Below, one piece after another: positions 41,080 to 52,201 of a stretch of DNA of 64,000 nt (positions within the stretch are counted from its first letter, which is position 1; each line of letters opens with the position of its first letter). The position numbers and the translations under genes are program-made. The stretch spans positions 1 through 64,000 of the forward strand of contig JAFAKB010000022.1 of NCBI GenBank assembly GCA_019235885.1, read 5' to 3'. Under the pieces are notes generated by a model that was not told where the DNA came from, did not search any database, and was given only the letters and a program-made list of their open reading frames with translations. This DNA comes from Candidatus Eremiobacterota bacterium (GTDB lineage Bacteria > Vulcanimicrobiota > Vulcanimicrobiia > Vulcanimicrobiales > Vulcanimicrobiaceae).

Positions 41080-42324
41080 CTAGAGGATCCGCGCCGTTCC
41101 GTCGGCCGGCGGCGCGCTCAGCGACGCGACTTCCGAGGCGCCGCCGTCGCGGCTGCGCGCGACGTACTTCTTCGCGTTGTCGATCATCGGCTCGAGCGCG
41201 GCAACCGTCTGCTGGAACGAGACCAGCGCCTTCTCCTTGTAGGCCGAGATGTTGTCGATCGCGGACTCGGTGTCGGCGAAGGCCTGCTTCAGCGTGCCGA
41301 GGTCGACGCTCGAGGCCGTCGCCTGCTCGAAGACTCGCTCCGTGTTCTGCTTGAGCATCGATGCCGTGTCGGCGATGAGCCGGTCGGTGGTCGCGTTGAG
41401 CGCCTGGATCTGGTCGAGCACGAGCTTCTGGTTGGTCAGCGCCTGGGCGACGATGATCGCCGTGCGCAGCGCCGCGATCGTGGTGGTCGTCGCGCGGTCG
41501 ACGCCCTTGATCAGCTCTTCGTTGTTCTTGCGGATCAGGTCGAGCGCGAGGTAGCCCTGCACGTTGACGGCCTGCTGCGTCGCGATGTCCTGCTGCTTCT
41601 GGCGCGCGTAGAAGAGCACGTCTTCCCTGAGGATTTTGGCGCGCTCAGGATCCGTGCTCGCCACCTGCTGGACCCGTGCGTCGATCGCGTCGGCGACTTT
41701 CTGCGCTAGGTACGCGAACTGCTCGAGCTGGCCCATCAGGTTCCAAAGATTTTCTTTCTCCTGCTCGATGTCGGCGTTGTCGTGCAGGAGCTGGTCGCGC
41801 GAGGCGTAGAGCCCGTTGATGATCGCGTTGAGGTGTGTCTGCGAGGACTCGTACGAGCGGAAGTAGTTCTCGATCTGCGGGCCGAGCGGGATCAGCCCGA
41901 GCAGCTTGTGCGGTGCGAGCAGGTCGCCGCGCGAGCGCGGGTCGAGCTTCTCGATCGTGTAACGCAGGTCGAGCAGCTGCTTCGAGACGTCCGACCCCTC
42001 GTCGAAGATCCCGCCGCCCATCGCGCGCACCGGCCGGTCGAGCAGCCGGTTCGAGACGCTCGCAGCGCGCTGGATCTCATCGTTCCCCATCGCGGAGATC
42101 GCGTTGACGCGCGTCTTGAAGTCGTCGCCGTGGACGGGGAGGGCCAGCAACTCCTTCGCGAAGTCGGCGACCTGCGCGTCTAGCTTGGCGGTTTGCTCCG
42201 GCTTGAGCTGCACCATCGCGAGCGCGGTCTGCGGCGGCACCGCGGCGACGGGCGCGGGCGGGGTGAGCGGCGGCGGCGCGGCGGCCGGCGCGGCCGATGC
42301 GGTCGGCGAGCTTTGGTCGTTCAC
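41080..42324 (-). CDS. TelA/KlaA toxic-anion resistance family protein
   Basis: 414 residues. The N-terminal 50 residues are Pro/Ala-rich. Then comes the TelA (PF05816) helical domain: ISAMGNDEIQRAASVSNRLLDRPVRAM, LLGLIPLGPQIENYFRSYESSQTHLNAII, NVQGYLALDLIRKNNEELIKGVDRATTTTIAALRTAIIVAQAL. TelA proteins are linked to tellurite, colicin and envelope stress resistance; the molecular mechanism is unknown. The gene begins 9 bp after its upstream neighbour's stop and ends 1 bp before the VWA gene, showing tight cotranscription. Confidence 0.9.
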   Translation of the reverse strand: MNDQSSPTASAAPAAAPPPLTPPAPVAAVPPQTALAMVQLKPEQTAKLDAQVADFAKELLALPVHGDDFKTRVNAISAMGNDEIQRAASVSNRLLDRPVRAMGGGIFDEGSDVSKQLLDLRYTIEKLDPRSRGDLLAPHKLLGLIPLGPQIENYFRSYESSQTHLNAIINGLYASRDQLLHDNADIEQEKENLWNLMGQLEQFAYLAQKVADAIDARVQQVASTDPERAKILREDVLFYARQKQQDIATQQAVNVQGYLALDLIRKNNEELIKGVDRATTTTIAALRTAIIVAQALTNQKLVLDQIQALNATTDRLIADTASMLKQNTERVFEQATASSVDLGTLKQAFADTESAIDNISAYKEKALVSFQQTVAALEPMIDNAKKYVARSRDGGASEVASLSAPPADGTARIL

Positions 42325-42333
42325 GGTGACCTC

Positions 42334-43440
42334 CTAGTTCGTTTGGAAGGCGCGCTCGACGCCGGTGATGATCGCTTCGAGAAACTCGTAGGACGGCGGA
42401 TCGACGACGTCGATGAGCTGGTCGGGGACGGCGATCCCGTTCTTCTTCCAGAAGTCGCGCGAGTAGGCGACGTCCTGGATGCGGAAGCCGTGCTCGACGG
42501 CGAGGTGCTGGAGCACCTCGTCCTCGGCGAGCAGATGTCCCAGCTTGTCGCCGCGGTCGGTGATCGGGACGAACGTGTGCTTGGTGTACAGCGTGGGCTT
42601 CGGGTAGAGCAGCAGCATGTCGGGGTTGCGATCGGTCTTGTGCTCCAGCGCGTACTCGATGAACTGCGACTCGTAGATCATCACGAGCGGCGCCTTGCCC
42701 ATCCCGATCTGCACGTAGTCGTCGAAGGGCCCGGCCGACGACGACTCCTCATAGCCTTGCCGCAGGAACAGGCCGTTGATCTTCGGCTGAATCTGCGCGA
42801 TCCGGGCGCGGTCGTCCACGATCTGGTTGCCGTTGAGCACGTACGAGGCGAGCGCGGCGTACATGATGCCTGAATTGGACTTGCGCGGGTCGGTGGTCGA
42901 GACGAGCACCGACTTGTTGACGTCGTAAGCGCCGGCGTTCTTGAAGTCGCGCCAGCGTTTGCCGCTGGTCTCCGCGTTCAGCAGCGCCGGCATGTCGATG
43001 ATGTAGAACTGGTTGCCGATCTTGCGCACGATGCCGTTGGCGACGAGGATCTGCGCGATCGGCTTCCACGATGCGACCGCCATCGGCGTGAAGAACGGCG
43101 TGTAGATGTCTTTTGCGCCGACGAGCTGCTTCAGCCGCTGTCCGGCCGGCGCGCCGGCGGGGAAGGCGAAGTCGTACGTCTTGAGGTCGGTGCGGTTCGC
43201 CATGTCGCGAGAGCCGGAGGTCTCGACTTGCAGATCGATCCCGTTCTTGCGCAGCTCGGCCAGAACGCGCGGGTCGGTCAGGTAGACCTGTTTCTCCGAG
43301 CCGATCAAACCGTGGACGGTGACGACGGCGCGGTCGGCGCGGCGACGCGCCGCGTCCTGGCTGGAGAGGTAGACCGCCAGGACGACGGCCGCGACGAGCA
43401 CGACAAGGGCGACGGGTCCCAGTACGCGTCGAGCGGTCAC
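42334..43440 (-). CDS. Membrane-anchored extracellular solute-binding-type protein
   Basis: 368 residues from the GTG at 43440, chosen because GGAGG (43451-43455) lies 10 nt upstream. A membrane anchor occupies residues about 6-26 (VLGPVALVVLVAAVVLAVYL). The rest resembles periplasmic binding proteins: VVTVHGLIGSEKQVYLTDPRVLAELRK, FTPMAVASWKPIAQIL, RKSNSGIMYAALASYVL, MIYESQFIEYAL. Two binding-protein lobes can be inferred. It is the first gene of the four-gene cluster. With no permease present, it is more likely a sensor or receptor than a transport component. Confidence 0.75.
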   Translation of the reverse strand: MTARRVLGPVALVVLVAAVVLAVYLSSQDAARRRADRAVVTVHGLIGSEKQVYLTDPRVLAELRKNGIDLQVETSGSRDMANRTDLKTYDFAFPAGAPAGQRLKQLVGAKDIYTPFFTPMAVASWKPIAQILVANGIVRKIGNQFYIIDMPALLNAETSGKRWRDFKNAGAYDVNKSVLVSTTDPRKSNSGIMYAALASYVLNGNQIVDDRARIAQIQPKINGLFLRQGYEESSSAGPFDDYVQIGMGKAPLVMIYESQFIEYALEHKTDRNPDMLLLYPKPTLYTKHTFVPITDRGDKLGHLLAEDEVLQHLAVEHGFRIQDVAYSRDFWKKNGIAVPDQLIDVVDPPSYEFLEAIITGVERAFQTN

Positions 43441-43583
43441 GCTGTTCGATCCTCCCGCCCGTCCGACTGGAACGGGCATGCAACGCAGGGTCGTACCCGG
43501 CGGCCGGGCAGAGGTTGCAACCGCCCGCCCAGCGGGCACTACCGCCGAGGACGGTCCTCTTCCTGTCCGAACCCTGCGCCGGG

Positions 43584-44366
43584 ATGGAAGCGAACGCGTT
43601 CTACGAGCGGCTCGACGAAGAGACGTTCGAAGCGAGCCGCGCGACGGCGAGCCCGTGGGACGAGCGCCTGCAGCACGGCAGCCCGCCGACCGCGCTGGTC
43701 GCGCACGTGATGACGCAACGCCACCCGCGCGACGAGATGCGCATCGCACGCGTCAATTCGGAGTTTCTCGGTCCGCTGCCGCTCGCGCGGATGCGGGTGA
43801 AGACGCGCGTCGTGCGGCCGGGAAAGCGGATCGAGATGCTCGAGGGCATCGTCGAAAGCGGCGGGCGTGAGGTGCTCACGGCGCGCGCGTGGCGCATCGC
43901 GACGCAATCCGACGGCAGCGTTCCGCCGGCCGCGACGCCGCCCGATCCGGTCCCGGCGATTCCGGAACCGCGCGATCCGCCGGCCTGGATGAAAAAGTTC
44001 GGCTACGGCGAGGCGTTCGAATGGCGGCACGTCTACGGCGGCGGCGTGCCCGGCCCGGCGGCCGTGTGGTCGCGCCCGCGCATTCCGCTGATCGCGGGCG
44101 AGCCGCTCGCACCGCTCGACCGCGCGCTGCTGGTGGCGGACTCGGCGAACGGGATCAGTGGCGAGCTGCCGATGGGCGAATGGCTCTTCGTTCCGCCCTC
44201 GCTCTCGGTGGCGCTGCAGCGCTACACGCGCGGCGAGTGGACGTTGCTCGAAGCGCGCACGACGCTGACCTCAGACGGCCTCGGCCTGACGACGCTGCGT
44301 CTCGCGGACCCCGACGGCTATTTCGCCGCCGGCACACAAGCGCTGCTGGTGGAGCGCCGCGCATAA
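43584..44366 (+). CDS. TesB-like acyl-CoA thioesterase family protein
   Basis: 260 residues from the ATG at 43584. It shows a double-hotdog pattern: first hotdog SPWDERLQHGSPPTALVAHVM with RVNSEFLGPLPLARMRVKTRVVRPGKRIEMLEGIV, second hotdog from about residue 150 with LLVADSANGISGELP and SLSVALQRYTRGEWTLLEARTTLTSDGLGL. This matches acyl-CoA thioesterase families (4HBT_3-like). The chain-length specificity is unknown. It is divergent from the solute-binding gene and followed by a hairpin-rich intergenic region. Confidence 0.8.
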   Translation: MEANAFYERLDEETFEASRATASPWDERLQHGSPPTALVAHVMTQRHPRDEMRIARVNSEFLGPLPLARMRVKTRVVRPGKRIEMLEGIVESGGREVLTARAWRIATQSDGSVPPAATPPDPVPAIPEPRDPPAWMKKFGYGEAFEWRHVYGGGVPGPAAVWSRPRIPLIAGEPLAPLDRALLVADSANGISGELPMGEWLFVPPSLSVALQRYTRGEWTLLEARTTLTSDGLGLTTLRLADPDGYFAAGTQALLVERRA

Positions 44367-44805
44367 CTCCCGCTCATGAGAAAGTGCCGCCTCACGCCTC
44401 GGCGGCTCCGTCTACGACTTGCGACGCCCGGTGGAGCCGGCGGGTGCGTAGATCGGTGGTGGTTTAGGGGGAGTGTACGGGGAACGAAACCGTCGCGAGG
44501 GGCGTCCTTAATCGTTCATAAGAGATACGTGAGGCGCGTCGGATGGTTTCGTTCCCGTACCTCAAGTATCGGACGCCCGCTCGGCAAGTTTACCGCTCCC
44601 GGCCCGGTCGTTTCCGTATCTTGACGTAGCCGCCGAACCGTCGGCACTGTGAGCGACCTGCCGCCCTAGGATATCCAGGCACGGCCTGGGCAATCCGCGG
44701 CGTCGGCGCGGTGACCCTCGGGAGCTGGACACCTTGTAGCGCCCTTAAGGGCTGATTGTCCAGAAACACCACGACCCGTGAATCAGATGCCGTGGCGACT
44801 GATAC
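44367..44805. other. Hairpin-rich intergenic region next to the helicase gene
   Basis: 439 bp without a convincing gene. It holds a GCCGCC/GGCGGC hairpin (44386-44406), the 17/16-bp inverted repeat described separately, the hairpin CCAGGC-ACG-GCCTGG (44675-44689), the 12-bp palindrome GCCCTTAAGGGC (44741-44752) nested in CTGGACA/TGTCCAG (44725-44763). The density of inverted repeats suggests a structured RNA, a mobile-element end or a cluster of protein-binding sites. A 60-residue minus-strand ORF at 44590-44772 has no recognisable features and is not called. Confidence 0.55.
44475..44578. repeat. Interleaved inverted repeats (pseudoknot order)
   Basis: Arm A GTACGGGGAACGAAACC (44475-44491) pairs with A' GGTTTCGTTCCCGTAC (44545-44560), with one bulged G. 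Arm B GGGCGTCC (44500-44507) pairs with B' GGACGCCC (44571-44578). The order A-B-A'-B' would form a pseudoknot if transcribed. The loop is AT-richer than the surroundings. Confidence 0.6.
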
Positions 44806-47700
44806 TCAAGAACCGCAGATGGTCAGCATCGCATTCTGCTGTTCACACCAATTTCCCGAAGCTGCGATCATGTTGTTGCCATGAATCCAATCCCCTATGC
44901 CGTCCAATTTTAGGCCGGGCTGGACGGCCATGATAGTCCATTGCACGCGCGGCGGAGTCCGAATATAGAGAGATAGGATCTCTCGCAACTCTTTCTCATC
45001 ACCGTGCGCGATATGCGTCGATGCTCTGTCGCCTAGTCGACGAGCGATCTCCGGAAACAGCAGTGTTGGAACGGTCCAACGCACACTTCGACTGGCTTGT
45101 GCAAGAACTTCATAGATATCCGCAAGCCTATGGCCCGGTTTTTCACCGCTCGACCACTTGCAATGAACAAGAGTTACAGACGCCTGACGAGCCGAACTAC
45201 GACGCACTACAATTAAATCAGCGATTTCATTCGCGGCATCATCGACTATCAGATAGCTGTCCGGATTTTCTGCAATGACTTCCGCGATTGTCATGGCGAG
45301 AATGTTGATTTTCCCGGCTTCCGGCACTCGAGACTCCGAGGACAAATCGACGCCATCCCAGGCCCAGCGGCGGAACTCCACCGGCGGCGCTCCGTCGAGG
45401 CTCCGCAGAATGCGCGCGCGTCCTCTAACGACGCTCGTTCCATCAGCAAAGATTATTGTTAGGGGATACTGATTGAGGATGTCACTAAAGCGCAGTCGCT
45501 CATTTTGCACAAGCGCAACGATGTCCGACCTGGCCACAACAGTACCGTCTAACTTTACAACGTATGTACCGATTAGTTTACCGGCGGCATCGACTCCGAC
45601 TAACACAGAATTCCCGGCAGCACGGCCGCGAAGGACGATATCGGAGACGTGAACAGTGCTATTTGCCGTTTCTAGCTGCACATCGTTAATATAGATCTCG
45701 GCCGCGAGACTAACACATAGCACGTCCCGCGGGTAACTGGCAAGCCGATGTCGCAGCGCAAGGCCTGCGATTCCGATAGACGACGATGTAGAAGCCATAA
45801 GGCGTGAGCCGATGTCGAGACACCAATGACGCCACGCAAGGAGCGACCCAGCTGAAGACTGCCAGATTTTGGCTGAATCGAAAGCCCCACCGATGCTATC
45901 AACACCTCCACCGACGCGAAATCGACCGATCGCATGGCCTGCACTCGCAGTGAGACGATCGGTTGCAGTAATACCACGCTCCGCGGCCCGTCCTGCGAGA
46001 CCTTTGTATGACGCGCCTGAAGACGCATCTATTTGATCGCTGCGGGCTCCGATACTAGAAAATGCTTCGATGTTGAAAGATCGAACGATCTTGCCCACTT
46101 CCTCACCATCCAACTGAACTGCATCCGAAGCTCCGAAGTGCGCAAGCAATTCCGCTGTCGTAGCCTCGGTATCGCTGGAAATGAAGAGTAGCCTACGACC
46201 TCGATCAATGAATGCGAGGTGAAGATCATATTGTTCCGTGTCTAATGCGGTGGAACGTAACCATCGGGGATGCACTCTGCTACGTGTGATTATGGCCGCT
46301 AGATCGCCGTCACTCTCCCAAAACGCCCGCCACACCGGACGCAGCGCTAGGTCGGCCGGAGCGCTTCGTAGGTCAACGTCGATTCCCGGCTCGATCCAGA
46401 ATATTCGAGCATATCTTCCGGGCTCGACTGCGGTAAGCGCAAACTCTTCCGGCTTACCGATAAACGTTGTGAGATAGTGTCTAGAAGCGCGCTCCTTTTC
46501 AACGGCCACGTCTGCGATATCGGGCAGAAGCTGCCCCCAAGACGCGTCCTCCTGGTACAACACTTCGGTTTCGCCGGAAAGGTCTTCAGGGATTGCAACC
46601 AGTTCCGGTTCGATTATTTTATCGTCCAGTGTCCTTGCTAAGCGTCCGACAAATTGAAGCGTCGCCGCGAAAGATCGATGCTTTGCATGATAGGCAGCAA
46701 TCTTTAGTCGTTTAAGATCAAAACCTTCGGTCAGGACGCCGACGACGATTACGCCGCGATAGATTCCTTGTTCAAGACGCTCGACGATATCGTTAACCTC
46801 GCGCGCGGATAGTGTCCCGACCAGGACGGGGAGTTCCAATCCTTTTCTTTCATATAGAGCCTTAAGCCGGTAAGCCTCAGCGATTTTGTTAGTCCGCACC
46901 AATAGCTGGCTCCCGGCGTCTCGGTGCCTCCTGGTATTCAACCTTTGGATAGCAACGCGTGCAATCGCATCATCTGCTGTTTCGCCCTTATCGAACTTTA
47001 CGGGTATAAAGGCGATTGGCCAATAGACGCCGTCAGCAATTGCTTCTCGGATGGAATATGTATAAACTATCTCCCCCGGCATTTGCCGCCGATCTCGACG
47101 TACGGGGGTAGCCGTCAGCATGGCGCATGGAAGAGTAGCAAACTCTTCAAGAATTGCGTTCCAGGTCGGTGCTGGAGAATGATGAGCCTCATCAATTATA
47201 ATTTGATCGAATAAATCTGGCGGTGGCGCCGGCACTCCGTACTTACTACTGACGCACTGAGGAGTCGCCACTATGACGTCATAGCCCGAAAGCGAATCCC
47301 AATCACCAGCCGATCTGATCCGCTTGCTCAGTGCTCGCACCTTTGGAGCCGCAACATTGCGCCGAAGCGCATTTGCCAGCTTAAGTGAGTTTAAGGTGCT
47401 GAACTCACGTTGTACTTGTCGTCGAACGATTTGAGACGGGACGACGACGAGTACACGCTTAGCGGCAGTGGCAATTGGCAGCGCCGTGATTACCGCAGTC
47501 TTGCCTGTTCCGGTTGGAAGTATTGCCTGACTTATTCCCGAACCTTCGAGAACACGCGCGGCAAGAGCCCACGTCGCTGCGACTTGAGCTCTGCGGAGCG
47601 GTCGTGGCGCATCCGATTTAAAAGCCAGAGATAAGTGGGCGTGATTGTCGCTGAAGAATGACGTTGCTGCCTCCTGACGATAAGGCCCGCGCCTTGACAA
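44806..47700 (-). CDS. DEAH-box superfamily 2 helicase with nuclease-like C-terminal domain (putative defence protein)
   Basis: 964 residues, TTG start. Helicase motifs in order: I PTGTGKT (62-68), II DEAH (170-173), III TATP (196-199), V GVLTEGFDLKRLKIAAYH (321-338), VI QFVGRLART (349-357). Residues about 400-800 match nothing I know. Near the C terminus EIADLIVV (from 825) and, 17 residues later, VHCK (845-848) resemble a PD-(D/E)xK nuclease centre with Glu825, Asp828 and Lys848, His replacing the usual Glu. Base composition is far less GC-rich than the surroundings, as for transferred genes. Comparable helicase-nuclease proteins serve phage defence or restriction; this is inference. No methylase or partner gene adjoins. 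Confidence 0.82.
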   Translation of the reverse strand: MSRRGPYRQEAATSFFSDNHAHLSLAFKSDAPRPLRRAQVAATWALAARVLEGSGISQAILPTGTGKTAVITALPIATAAKRVLVVVPSQIVRRQVQREFSTLNSLKLANALRRNVAAPKVRALSKRIRSAGDWDSLSGYDVIVATPQCVSSKYGVPAPPPDLFDQIIIDEAHHSPAPTWNAILEEFATLPCAMLTATPVRRDRRQMPGEIVYTYSIREAIADGVYWPIAFIPVKFDKGETADDAIARVAIQRLNTRRHRDAGSQLLVRTNKIAEAYRLKALYERKGLELPVLVGTLSAREVNDIVERLEQGIYRGVIVVGVLTEGFDLKRLKIAAYHAKHRSFAATLQFVGRLARTLDDKIIEPELVAIPEDLSGETEVLYQEDASWGQLLPDIADVAVEKERASRHYLTTFIGKPEEFALTAVEPGRYARIFWIEPGIDVDLRSAPADLALRPVWRAFWESDGDLAAIITRSRVHPRWLRSTALDTEQYDLHLAFIDRGRRLLFISSDTEATTAELLAHFGASDAVQLDGEEVGKIVRSFNIEAFSSIGARSDQIDASSGASYKGLAGRAAERGITATDRLTASAGHAIGRFRVGGGVDSIGGAFDSAKIWQSSAGSLLAWRHWCLDIGSRLMASTSSSIGIAGLALRHRLASYPRDVLCVSLAAEIYINDVQLETANSTVHVSDIVLRGRAAGNSVLVGVDAAGKLIGTYVVKLDGTVVARSDIVALVQNERLRFSDILNQYPLTIIFADGTSVVRGRARILRSLDGAPPVEFRRWAWDGVDLSSESRVPEAGKINILAMTIAEVIAENPDSYLIVDDAANEIADLIVVRRSSARQASVTLVHCKWSSGEKPGHRLADIYEVLAQASRSVRWTVPTLLFPEIARRLGDRASTHIAHGDEKELREILSLYIRTPPRVQWTIMAVQPGLKLDGIGDWIHGNNMIAASGNWCEQQNAMLTICGS

Positions 47701-48151
47701 GTCACACGAGTTTGACTTCTGGCCTTGCGTACATCGTTCCGCCCGGAGCCTGGCTAGTCCCTGCGATACATGACTAATCTCCCTCCATCAGAGGTCCTTG
47801 TCCCAATCCGCGCCAGCTGATTCGCACTCGCCGCCGGATCCTATAGTTCACTCGCGCGACGGCGATCCTCGTGACGCTCGCCGTCGATGACGCGCTCCCG
47901 CTCGCCGACCGCGTCGTCGTGCTGGCCGGAACACCGTCGGAGATCGCGTTCACCGGCGTCGTCGGCGCCGACGCGACGCGGGCCGCGATTTTCAACGCCC
48001 TTGGCGTCGCGGACGTCGGACGAGATCAAAGATCTTGGCCTCCACCGCAACCAGCGAGACGAGATAGCGGTTTTAGGGAGCCCTACTCAACGCCACCGGA
48101 GGTACAGATGAAGCCAGGACAGCCGCCGCTAGGAATCTGATTAAAACGCCC
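47701..48151. other. 451-bp stretch with gene remnants
   Basis: Between the helicase start and the PDZ-hydrolase end. It contains the ABC-ATPase remnant listed separately, a phrase EIKDLGLHRNQ in another frame (about 48025-48057) reminiscent of small DUF1127-type proteins, and a GGAGG followed by a 10-codon ORF at 48108. These look like scraps left at an insertion boundary. Confidence 0.5.
47847..48020 (+). pseudogene. C-terminal fragment of an ABC transporter ATPase
   Basis: The frame reads ATAILVTLAVDDALPLADRV and then VVLAGTPSEIAF, ending near FNALGVAD. This is the H-loop to C-terminal region of nitrate/sulfonate-type ABC ATPases (usual form LVTHDVDEALxLADRVVVL); the H-loop His-Asp is changed to Ala-Val. 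A TAG at 47844 closes the frame upstream, and no Walker A or signature lies nearby. The fragment directly borders the low-GC helicase islet, so the rest of the gene was probably lost when the islet arrived. Confidence 0.6.
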
Positions 48152-49498
48152 TCAGCCTGAGCGCGGCGCCGTGCAGCGTTCGTGCTCGCACAGCCAGCTC
48201 GCGATCGCGGCGCTGAAGCGCTCGTCGTACTTCGGAGGCGCTCCGCCAGCCGGCTGCTGCACGCGCTCCAAGGAGGCGCGTTGCGAGGCAGCGGGGATGA
48301 GGTAGTGGTCCATCCCGTCGATCACGGTCAGCTTCGCGCGGCCGGGGTGGGCGCCGTTGACGACGTCGACGATGCGCTTGTGGTCGGCTTCGTCGGTGAC
48401 GAAGTCGGCGGACCCGTAGACCGCGAGCACGGGTATCGACAGCTTCGACCACGGCTCGGCCATGTTGAAAGCAACGATCTGCTGGAAGTACGCCGGCGGG
48501 GCGGGATATTGCACGTAGTCTTTGCACTCCGGGGTTGCGCGCAGCAGCGCATCGCGGTCCTGTTTCTCCACCAGCAGGCGGTGCATGCAGTTTTCCTTCA
48601 GCAGCATATCCGCGTCGACTTCGGCCGGGGTACCGCCGCTGAGCTCTTCCTGGCGGCGACTGTTGATCAGCTCGTACTCGAACCAGTCGCGGCCAACGCC
48701 TTCGGCGACGACGATGCCGGCGACCGGCTTCTGCAGCGCGAGCCGCGGCGCGATCACCGAGCCGATGCTGTGGCCGAAGACGTAGACGTGCGCCGGATCG
48801 ACGTGCGGGTCGGCGAGCAGCGCGTCGAACGCCACCGTGTAACTCGCCGCTTCGGTGACGTAGTCGACCGTCGAGCACGGCGGGCCTTGGCTGTCGCCCA
48901 CGCCGCTTTTCTCCAAGCGCATCGTGACGAAGCCACGCTTGCTAAGATCGTGCGCGAGCCGGAGGTATGCATCTTCCGGATTGGACGCGACGTCGACCGA
49001 GTAGCAGCCGATCCCGCCGACGATCAGCACGGCCGGGTGCTTTCCGGCAACGCCGTGCGGCGTGGTGACCAGCGTGCGCCGCAAGCTGTGGTCGACGTCG
49101 ACCGCGTCGTAGGCGGTGTCGACGGCCGAATCGTGTTCTTTCGGCGCTTCGGCGAGAACCACGCGAACGTTCATCGCGTCCTTGCCGCGCACGATCCGCA
49201 GCGCCACCGGCTGACCGGCGGGCCGGCGCAGCTTCTTCAGAAAGTCCGGAACGTCGGCGACCGGCGCGCCGTCGAGGCTCTTCACCACGTCGCCGGCGAG
49301 CAGTCCCGCCACCGCGGCAGGAAGCGACGGCAGGACCGCCGTGACCGTTACGCCGCCGCCCTCGGCGTTGGCCAGGCTCGCGCCGAGAATCCCGCGGCGC
49401 GGCAACGTCTCGCGCGCCGACGCAACAGCGCACAGCAGCGTGACCAGGATGAGGACGGCGGCGGCGGTGCGGCAGACGGGTCGGCGAGCGGTCAGCAT
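48152..49498 (-). CDS. Exported alpha/beta hydrolase with N-terminal PDZ domain
   Basis: 448 residues with a signal peptide (TAAAVLILVTLLCAVASA). Residues about 32-110 are a PDZ domain (GILGASLANAEGGGVTVTAVLPSLPAAVAGLLAGDVVKSLDGAPV). From about 135 an alpha/beta hydrolase domain has PAVLIVGGIGCYS, nucleophile Ser in VFGHSIGSVIAP, a likely acid Asp in YGSADFVTDEADH and His in IDGMDHYLIP. It is predicted to hydrolyse an ester or peptide outside the cytoplasm. The PDZ fusion is uncommon for this fold and may bind a partner or substrate tail. Divergent from the MetY-like gene. Confidence 0.82.
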   Translation of the reverse strand: MLTARRPVCRTAAAVLILVTLLCAVASARETLPRRGILGASLANAEGGGVTVTAVLPSLPAAVAGLLAGDVVKSLDGAPVADVPDFLKKLRRPAGQPVALRIVRGKDAMNVRVVLAEAPKEHDSAVDTAYDAVDVDHSLRRTLVTTPHGVAGKHPAVLIVGGIGCYSVDVASNPEDAYLRLAHDLSKRGFVTMRLEKSGVGDSQGPPCSTVDYVTEAASYTVAFDALLADPHVDPAHVYVFGHSIGSVIAPRLALQKPVAGIVVAEGVGRDWFEYELINSRRQEELSGGTPAEVDADMLLKENCMHRLLVEKQDRDALLRATPECKDYVQYPAPPAYFQQIVAFNMAEPWSKLSIPVLAVYGSADFVTDEADHKRIVDVVNGAHPGRAKLTVIDGMDHYLIPAASQRASLERVQQPAGGAPPKYDERFSAAIASWLCEHERCTAPRSG

Positions 49499-50919: not shown

Positions 50920-51398
50920 TCCTCACGACGCCGGCGGAGCGGCGCGCGCTGCTCGACCGCTCGCGCACCGTCGGGATGGTCGGGGCGTCGGCGAACCACA
51001 GCCGGCCGAGCTACTTCGTCTTCTCGTACTTGCGCACGAAAGGGAAGCTCGACGTTTCCCCGATCAACCCGGCAATCGCGGAGATCGACGGCGTGCACGC
51101 GTATCCGTCGCTGGCCGCGTATCGTGAAGACCGCGGCGCGCCGCCGGACATCGTGGACGTGTTTCGCAAGCCGGACGACGCGCCGCAAGTCGTGCGCGAG
51201 GCGATCGCGGTCGGCGCGAAGGCGGTATGGTTTCAGTATGGCGTGATCAACGACGAAGCGATCCGCCTCGCCGTCGAAGCCGGGCTCGACGTCGTCGTCG
51301 ACCGCTGCATAAAAGTGGAGTCGGCACGCTTTGACGGCGGCCTCGCCCTGGGCGGGATGAACACGGGGCTACTGACGTCAAAGCGACGCGCTCGGTAA
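50916..51398 (+). CDS. CoA-binding domain protein (YccU-like)
   Basis: 160 residues, GTG start inside the metY stop (GTGA). The Rossmann-like CoA_binding domain reads RTVGMVGASANHSRPSYFVFSYLR, VSPINPAIAEIDGVHAYPSL, DIVDVFRKPDDAPQVVREAIAVGAKAVWFQYGVINDEA. Such proteins bind CoA; the effect is unknown. Adjacent metY homologs are common for this family, so a link to sulfur amino acid or CoA-disulfide metabolism is plausible. Confidence 0.85.
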   Translation: MILTTPAERRALLDRSRTVGMVGASANHSRPSYFVFSYLRTKGKLDVSPINPAIAEIDGVHAYPSLAAYREDRGAPPDIVDVFRKPDDAPQVVREAIAVGAKAVWFQYGVINDEAIRLAVEAGLDVVVDRCIKVESARFDGGLALGGMNTGLLTSKRRAR

Positions 51399-51556
51399 TG
51401 ATTAATCAGAGAATCGACCGGGATTTACGTGCCGCAGCAGTTCGAGGCTGCCATCAGAAATATGCGAACTTCCCCCGAATAATGCGAAGTTGTATGAAAT
51501 GATGGCCGAAAAGGACCGGGACTAGCGCTGGAGCCTGGTAGAATTTACGAACTACG

Positions 51557-52201
51557 GTGGCGCGACATGTTTTTCCAGCATGGTTTGATGCGGCGGCCTT
51601 TCGTGAAGCGTTTCAGCTAGCTTCAGAGAACCTTCCGCTGGCGGAACTCCGATACAGCGCCGCTGCGTCTGCCGACTCTTGCAGTGTCGACATCGCCCAA
51701 GAATACGTCGACGACTACGGAGTCTATCGTCTCGAAATTCTTCGTCGGATACGGGATATCGTTGCGACGAAAGTCGCCGAGCATGCAGGTTTTTTTGTCG
51801 TCGACGACCCGCCCCACCGTGCCTACCATTTTCAAAAGCGCGGATTGGCGACGCGGCATCTGCAATCAATGCTGACGCTCTACGACCGCATCGGCGTTTC
51901 AATCATACAGCTTGCGGCCACGCAAGACGGTAGAATCGTCTGGCCTAAATTCGGCTTTCGCATCGATCCGGCGGAACGTGCGGAGTTTGAGAACGAGCTC
52001 ATCGCTCTGGAGACGCGCCTGACCGGAATACGACCCGCTCGCTCGTCGTTGCCGGTGGACGGGCCTGACATGCTGACGTACAGCCGAGGCGAATACCCGC
52101 TCGGCATGATGGCACTCCGCGCGCGCAGCTTTTGGTCTCTGCAACTGGACTTGACTGATCGGGCGCAACGCGCGATACTAGAAGCAAAATGTCGACCTTA
52201 G
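51557..52201 (+). CDS. Protein of unknown function with GNAT-like segment
   Basis: 214 residues, GTG start; TAGAAT at 51539-51544 could be its -10 box. Residues about 94-138 read QKRGLATRHLQSMLTLYDRI, then IQLAATQDGRIVWPKFGF. This resembles the acetyl-CoA-binding motif A (Q/RxxGxG/A) and following strand of GNAT-fold proteins. The rest is unmatched. Base composition is lower in GC than the neighbours. The next gene starts 13 bp before this stop, so the two form a unit, possibly a toxin-antitoxin-like pair (inference only). Confidence 0.6.
   Translation: MARHVFPAWFDAAAFREAFQLASENLPLAELRYSAAASADSCSVDIAQEYVDDYGVYRLEILRRIRDIVATKVAEHAGFFVVDDPPHRAYHFQKRGLATRHLQSMLTLYDRIGVSIIQLAATQDGRIVWPKFGFRIDPAERAEFENELIALETRLTGIRPARSSLPVDGPDMLTYSRGEYPLGMMALRARSFWSLQLDLTDRAQRAILEAKCRP

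Follow-up and report, generated by a model that had tools for sequence, protein, structure and literature searches.

The window is a stretch of 64,000 nucleotides from a Candidatus Eremiobacterota (WPS-2) genome, and the segment of interest, 44367-44805, lies between an acyl-CoA thioesterase gene and a helicase gene. Within it is a 71-base element, E1. The features considered here are as follows.

43515..44366, plus strand: acyl-CoA thioesterase gene (Pfam 4HBT_3, 4HBT_3C), convergent with E1
44385..44455, minus strand: E1, core of a proposed small RNA (structured RNA candidate; copies, covariation, no Rfam match)
44386..44406, minus strand: 3' hairpin of E1, with a covarying 6-bp stem and a conserved 9-nt loop
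44409..44455, minus strand: 5' stem-loop of E1, with a covarying 8-bp outer stem, an invariant internal loop and an invariant inner GC hairpin
44475-44491 / 44545-44560: long inverted repeat A/A' (17/16 nt, one bulge, 12 bp uninterrupted)
44483..44507, minus strand: proximal ECF-type promoter-like boxes, GGAC-N17-CGTT, facing E1 (comparable motif in 9/11 copies)
44500-44507 / 44571-44578: B/B' arms (8 bp)
44526..44550, minus strand: distal ECF-type promoter-like boxes, GAAAC-N16-CGTA (also in relatives G001, G002 and G003a)
44725..44763, minus strand: 7-bp stem enclosing a 12-bp palindrome, located 43 nt past the stop codon of the helicase gene
44806..47700, minus strand: helicase gene (ResIII/DEAD/Helicase_C, 964 aa), a low-GC island gene and not part of E1
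47847..48017, plus strand: ABC-transporter ATPase gene remnant (3'-terminal part), at the right border of the island

The initial annotation described the segment as dense in hairpins, and the inverted-repeat arms that it named were all found in the sequence. These include the A/A' and B/B' arms, whose coordinates give the order A-B-A'-B' as described, a 12-bp palindrome (GCCCTTAAGGGC, 44741-44752) nested in a 7-bp stem (44725-44731/44757-44763), and a perfect 6-bp hairpin (44675-44680/44684-44689). Compared with 200 dinucleotide shuffles of the segment, there were 20 arms of at least 6 bp (shuffle mean 15.0; reached by 23/200), 9 of at least 7 bp (mean 4.0; 4/200) and 3 of at least 8 bp (mean 1.2; 19/200), and the longest uninterrupted arm, at 12 bp, was matched by 1/200 shuffles. 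The excess of arms is real but moderate and rests mainly on the A/A' pair, which overlaps both pairs of promoter-like boxes; the 8-, 7- and 6-bp arms singly are near chance. Folding of the entire segment gave z = -3.67 on the plus strand (0/100 shuffles as good) and z = -2.99 on the minus strand (1/100), values that favor reading all 440 bp as one structured RNA or pseudoknot belonging to the helicase. However, no relatives were found for the sequence beyond approximately 44575, the full A/A' arms were seen in this genome and not in its relatives, and the helicase is missing from the other 10 genomes of the genus; we consider this reading extremely improbable. The hairpins at 44575-44805 seem either to be incidental or to belong to the 3' end of the helicase gene, and the stem at 44725..44763 may form a hairpin at the 3' end of the helicase mRNA.

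The helicase gene has a GC content of 52-56% within a setting of 65-72%. It was found in 2 of the 97 genomes searched, its own and G102 from another genus, where a relative is 53% identical over residues 19-527 and E1 is absent. The search did not find it in the other 10 genomes of the genus, and 9 of the 10 genomes that carry E1 are without it, which argues against the proposed tie between the structured segment and the helicase. The protein weakly resembles restriction and defence models. Its C-terminal part matches the PADLOC model PDC-S71 weakly (residues 811-871) and contains a D...HCK motif, noted by eye, that we take to be nuclease-like; the gene, sporadic in its distribution, may therefore be a helicase-nuclease defence gene. 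The ATPase remnant at the island border shares 67-75% identity with the C-terminal ends of intact genes in loci L009, L010 and L012, and relatives keep an ABC-transporter operon between E1 and metY. The remnant and the intact operon in relatives suggest that most of the operon was replaced by the island. The helicase is a recent newcomer, a later arrival beside E1 and unrelated to it, and the case shows that hairpins in a gap adjoining a helicase gene may be independent of it. The complete operon, encoding an NMT1-like binding protein, a permease and the ATPase, was observed before metY in G002, G004 and G008. A second dip in GC (approximately 0.56-0.57) is present at 51250-52000 of the window, behind a CoA-binding gene.

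A nucleotide search of 60 genomes returned matches in 11, own genome included; the match in G024 was through the thioesterase gene only. By genome comparison, the sequence shared besides this gene was a stretch of approximately 72 bases that follows it. Where blastn reports the stretch apart from the gene, its identity to that of the window is 84-92%, and in some relatives the stretch lies a further 0.5-1 kb downstream. E1, at 71 bases, is kept nearly unchanged among close relatives. It was present in 10 of the 11 genomes of the genus as 11 copies, one per genome except for two in G003 (G003a and G003b). The aligned set comprised these 11 copies from 10 genomes (the window, G001-G006 and G008-G010, with G003 represented twice). 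Mean pairwise identity was 0.831 within E1, compared to 0.277 and 0.294 in the 70-base flanks. An element that is mostly single-copy and 83% identical in surroundings that cannot be aligned is under strong selection. The aligned sequence after E1 in the window, G001, G002 and G003a shows mainly the promoter-like boxes.

The initial annotation also suggested the end of a mobile element or a binding array. The whole 44367-44805 region, E1 included, is single-copy in its own genome, the island borders share no repeat longer than 9 bp, and searches of viral contigs, phages and plasmids gave no match to E1; the locus thus shows neither the multiple copies nor the bounding repeats of a mobile element, and a binding array was likewise not found. 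E1 could also act as DNA that folds as a single strand, serving in recombination or attachment or as a site bound by a protein, and the varying gene content on its far side and the approximately 2 kb flanked by the two G003 copies are consistent with this. However, most genomes hold one copy, the far borders of the variable region carry no partial copies, the window has no border repeats over 9 bp, and the two G003 copies are 90% and 84% identical to that of the window, unlike a fresh duplication. A DNA site is therefore very unlikely.

Protein coding was ruled out for E1 from the alignment, read by eye, because the invariant runs extend over all codon positions and some copies have a TAG within the longest frame; second codon positions covary. 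The alignment instead supports two helices. In the consensus structure of E1, which was drawn from the same sequences that were then counted, 95.9% of 220 cells were paired in the plus-strand alignment and 97.7% in the minus-strand alignment. Five pairs were altered on both sides, with 16 compensated cells in the plus-strand alignment; 0/500 shuffles reached 16 compensated cells, and 32/500 reached 5 double-changed pairs. Sliding the stem partners reduced pairing to 28-48%. Since compensatory changes preserve both stems, we regard E1 as very probably a real structured RNA. The earlier proposal of a structured RNA is thus supported for the 71-nt E1, with helices of its own, and not for the A-B-A'-B' pseudoknot; the comparison with relatives did not recover the full arms of the latter. 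The inner GC hairpin never varies and so is predicted only. The RNAalifold inner pairs differ somewhat between strands, the consensus structure is not always present in minimum-energy folds of single copies, and the fold energy of the window's E1 alone is not unusual (z -0.71 and -1.31).

Covariance model R1 found E1 in 10 of the 11 genus genomes when 99 genomes of the family were searched, and in the same 10 only among 149 genomes of the phylum (E 0.001). Model R2, built on the minus strand, likewise found the same 10 of 149 (E 0.01), and E1 was absent from the other 138 phylum genomes at these thresholds. In the remaining genome of the genus, G007, E1 was not found even when the contig behind the thioesterase gene was scanned without filters. 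Five weak matches in 4 genomes of other genera (family search, E 0.003-0.008) were taken for chance; none passes E 0.001 with R1 or E 0.01 with R2 in the 149 genomes. Scores at the loci of thioesterase homologues in other genera did not rise above chance level. An exact pattern of the E1 core, searched in 84,980 species genomes, matched 8 stretches in 7 assemblies, each of which bears Ca. Eremiobacterota or candidate division WPS-2 in its title. Rfam had no match anywhere in the window, with nothing on E1 up to E 10 and nothing on the E1 copies of L019, L020, L026 and L028 up to E 1. ARAGORN identified 0 tRNA or tmRNA genes at 42000-49000, and E1 was rejected as either. E1 is non-coding, conserved across the genus and present mostly as a single copy, and it carries two covarying stem-loops.

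With regard to strand, 209 of the 220 cells were Watson-Crick pairs, 2 were G-T when read on the plus strand, 6 were C-A on the plus strand and hence G-U on the minus strand, and 3 were neither. This wobble bias toward the minus strand (6 to 2) is small. Promoter-like boxes point in the same direction. GA(A)AC-N15..18-CGT[AT] occurred within 100 nt upstream on the minus strand in 9/11 copies (shuffle mean 0.37; 0/1000 shuffles reached 9), and G[AG]A[CT]-N16..18-CGT[AT] at 36-60 nt in 9/11 copies compared to 1.1% of random windows, although these widened patterns were shaped on the same sequences in which they were counted; the pattern was not found in G003b or G006. The published hallmark of ECF promoters, AAC and CGT (PMC8103513, PMC3426412), occurred at a spacing of 16-17 in 7/11 copies compared to 7.9% of random windows. 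These are matches to a consensus, not measures of activity, and because the E1 copies are related, neither the promoter counts nor the wobble counts are independent trials. One form of the promoter, scanned across the own genome, had 6 matches compared to 2 in the reversed control. Judging from the wobble pairs and the boxes together, E1 is most probably transcribed from the minus strand. Against this, on the opposite strand of the same upstream DNA, the hallmark was seen in 5/11 copies, directed away from E1, which indicates that this flank may hold promoters both ways; on the other side of E1, it pointed toward E1 on the plus strand in 1/11. In G001 (L011, 9503-9640), plus-strand ECF-type boxes lie just before metY, and these too suggest that the flank may carry bidirectional promoters.

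The genes around E1 bear on what kind of RNA it could be. E1 lies 13-26 nt behind the thioesterase stop in 5/11 copies (window, G001, G004, G008 and G010); in G002, G003a, G006 and G009 further genes stand between the two, and in G005 the gene preceding it encodes a class-III aminotransferase and belongs to the same block, the thioesterase gene being elsewhere. This proximity, together with the same gene block ahead of most other copies, would suit a plus-strand E1, which could be an element of the 3' untranslated region or a small RNA processed from the arginine/thioesterase transcript at its 3' end, and no conserved promoter would then be required. However, the gene on the 5' side of a plus-strand E1 has the opposite orientation in G006 and G003b, several genomes place E1 0.5-1 kb away with genes between, and the wobble bias favors the minus strand, so that we consider this reading unlikely.

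The gene on the far side of E1 varies, being metY in G001, the helicase in the window and others elsewhere. An amidase-type gene was found there in G005, G006, G009 and G010 (family assigned for G005, by clustering for the other three). Read on the minus strand, 9/11 copies of E1 have a convergent gene ahead of them, and E1 is followed by a codirectional gene in 2/11, namely an F420-dependent oxidoreductase-type gene starting 50 nt behind E1 in G006 and an AraC-type regulator gene starting approximately 88 nt behind it in G003b. These two genes and the invariant internal loop could suggest a cis-acting leader or riboswitch; however, the two genes are unrelated, and with most copies facing a convergent gene we give this reading only a very slight probability. 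A leader of metY specifically was rejected, metY being directly behind E1 only in G001. The variable neighbors and the rarity of codirectional genes fit a free-standing small RNA better than a riboswitch, and the gene context argues for an independent gene, not a leader or 3' untranslated element. Taken together, these data make it fairly likely that E1 is the core of a free-standing structured small RNA gene, on the minus strand and in one genus of Ca. Eremiobacterota.

For such a gene, an ECF-type sigma factor would start transcription a short way upstream, at approximately 44460-44480, and the RNA would span both stem-loops and end near the 3' hairpin, in most cases within a gap between convergent genes. 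The 3' hairpin was not supported as a terminator, as the two sides of E1 are equally rich in T (3.8 and 3.7 per 12 nt, against a background of 1.9). A terminator-like T run specific to one side was not found, and a consensus terminator scan found none at E1. Beyond this, the RNA might act in trans and respond to stress, its invariant internal loop might bind a protein or ligand, and its exposed hairpin loop might serve base pairing.

The small RNAs RybB and MicA of E. coli are transcribed under RpoE, an ECF sigma factor. Like them, E1 is short, rich in stem-loops and free-standing in a gene gap, with a predicted ECF-type promoter close upstream; unlike them, it has a strongly conserved internal loop and no clear T-run terminator, and Rfam shows no sequence relation. 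The EcfG-type general stress promoter is given as GGAAC-N16-CGTT (PMC7083833). The boxes upstream of minus-strand E1 resemble it in the AAC/CGT cores and the spacing of 16-17 in 7/11 copies, but many copies read GAACC or GAACG in place of GGAAC, and G004 and G008 have a spacer of 18 bases. With orphan structured RNA motifs known from comparative genomics (for example PMC2864571; see also PMC8632094), E1 shares a conserved core, covarying stems and location in a gene gap; it differs in its confinement to one Ca. Eremiobacterota genus and has no Rfam 15 family. A literature search for a small RNA or riboswitch of the phylum returned no paper that, judged by its title and the opening of its abstract, concerns RNAs of the phylum. 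We propose E1 as a candidate new RNA family of a known kind, absent from the Rfam catalogue searched, and consider it well suited as a candidate small regulatory RNA. Only tentatively, E1 could represent an RNA class restricted to this genus and be the first of that class to be described, controlled by a stress sigma factor and acting in trans, with an invariant internal loop that binds a particular protein or metabolite and an exposed loop that pairs with target messages.

The gap around E1 collects new genes. In G003 (L015, 12145-13103), a RES-domain protein gene and a small gene preceding it are inserted between the thioesterase gene and E1, and these two are likely a toxin-antitoxin pair.
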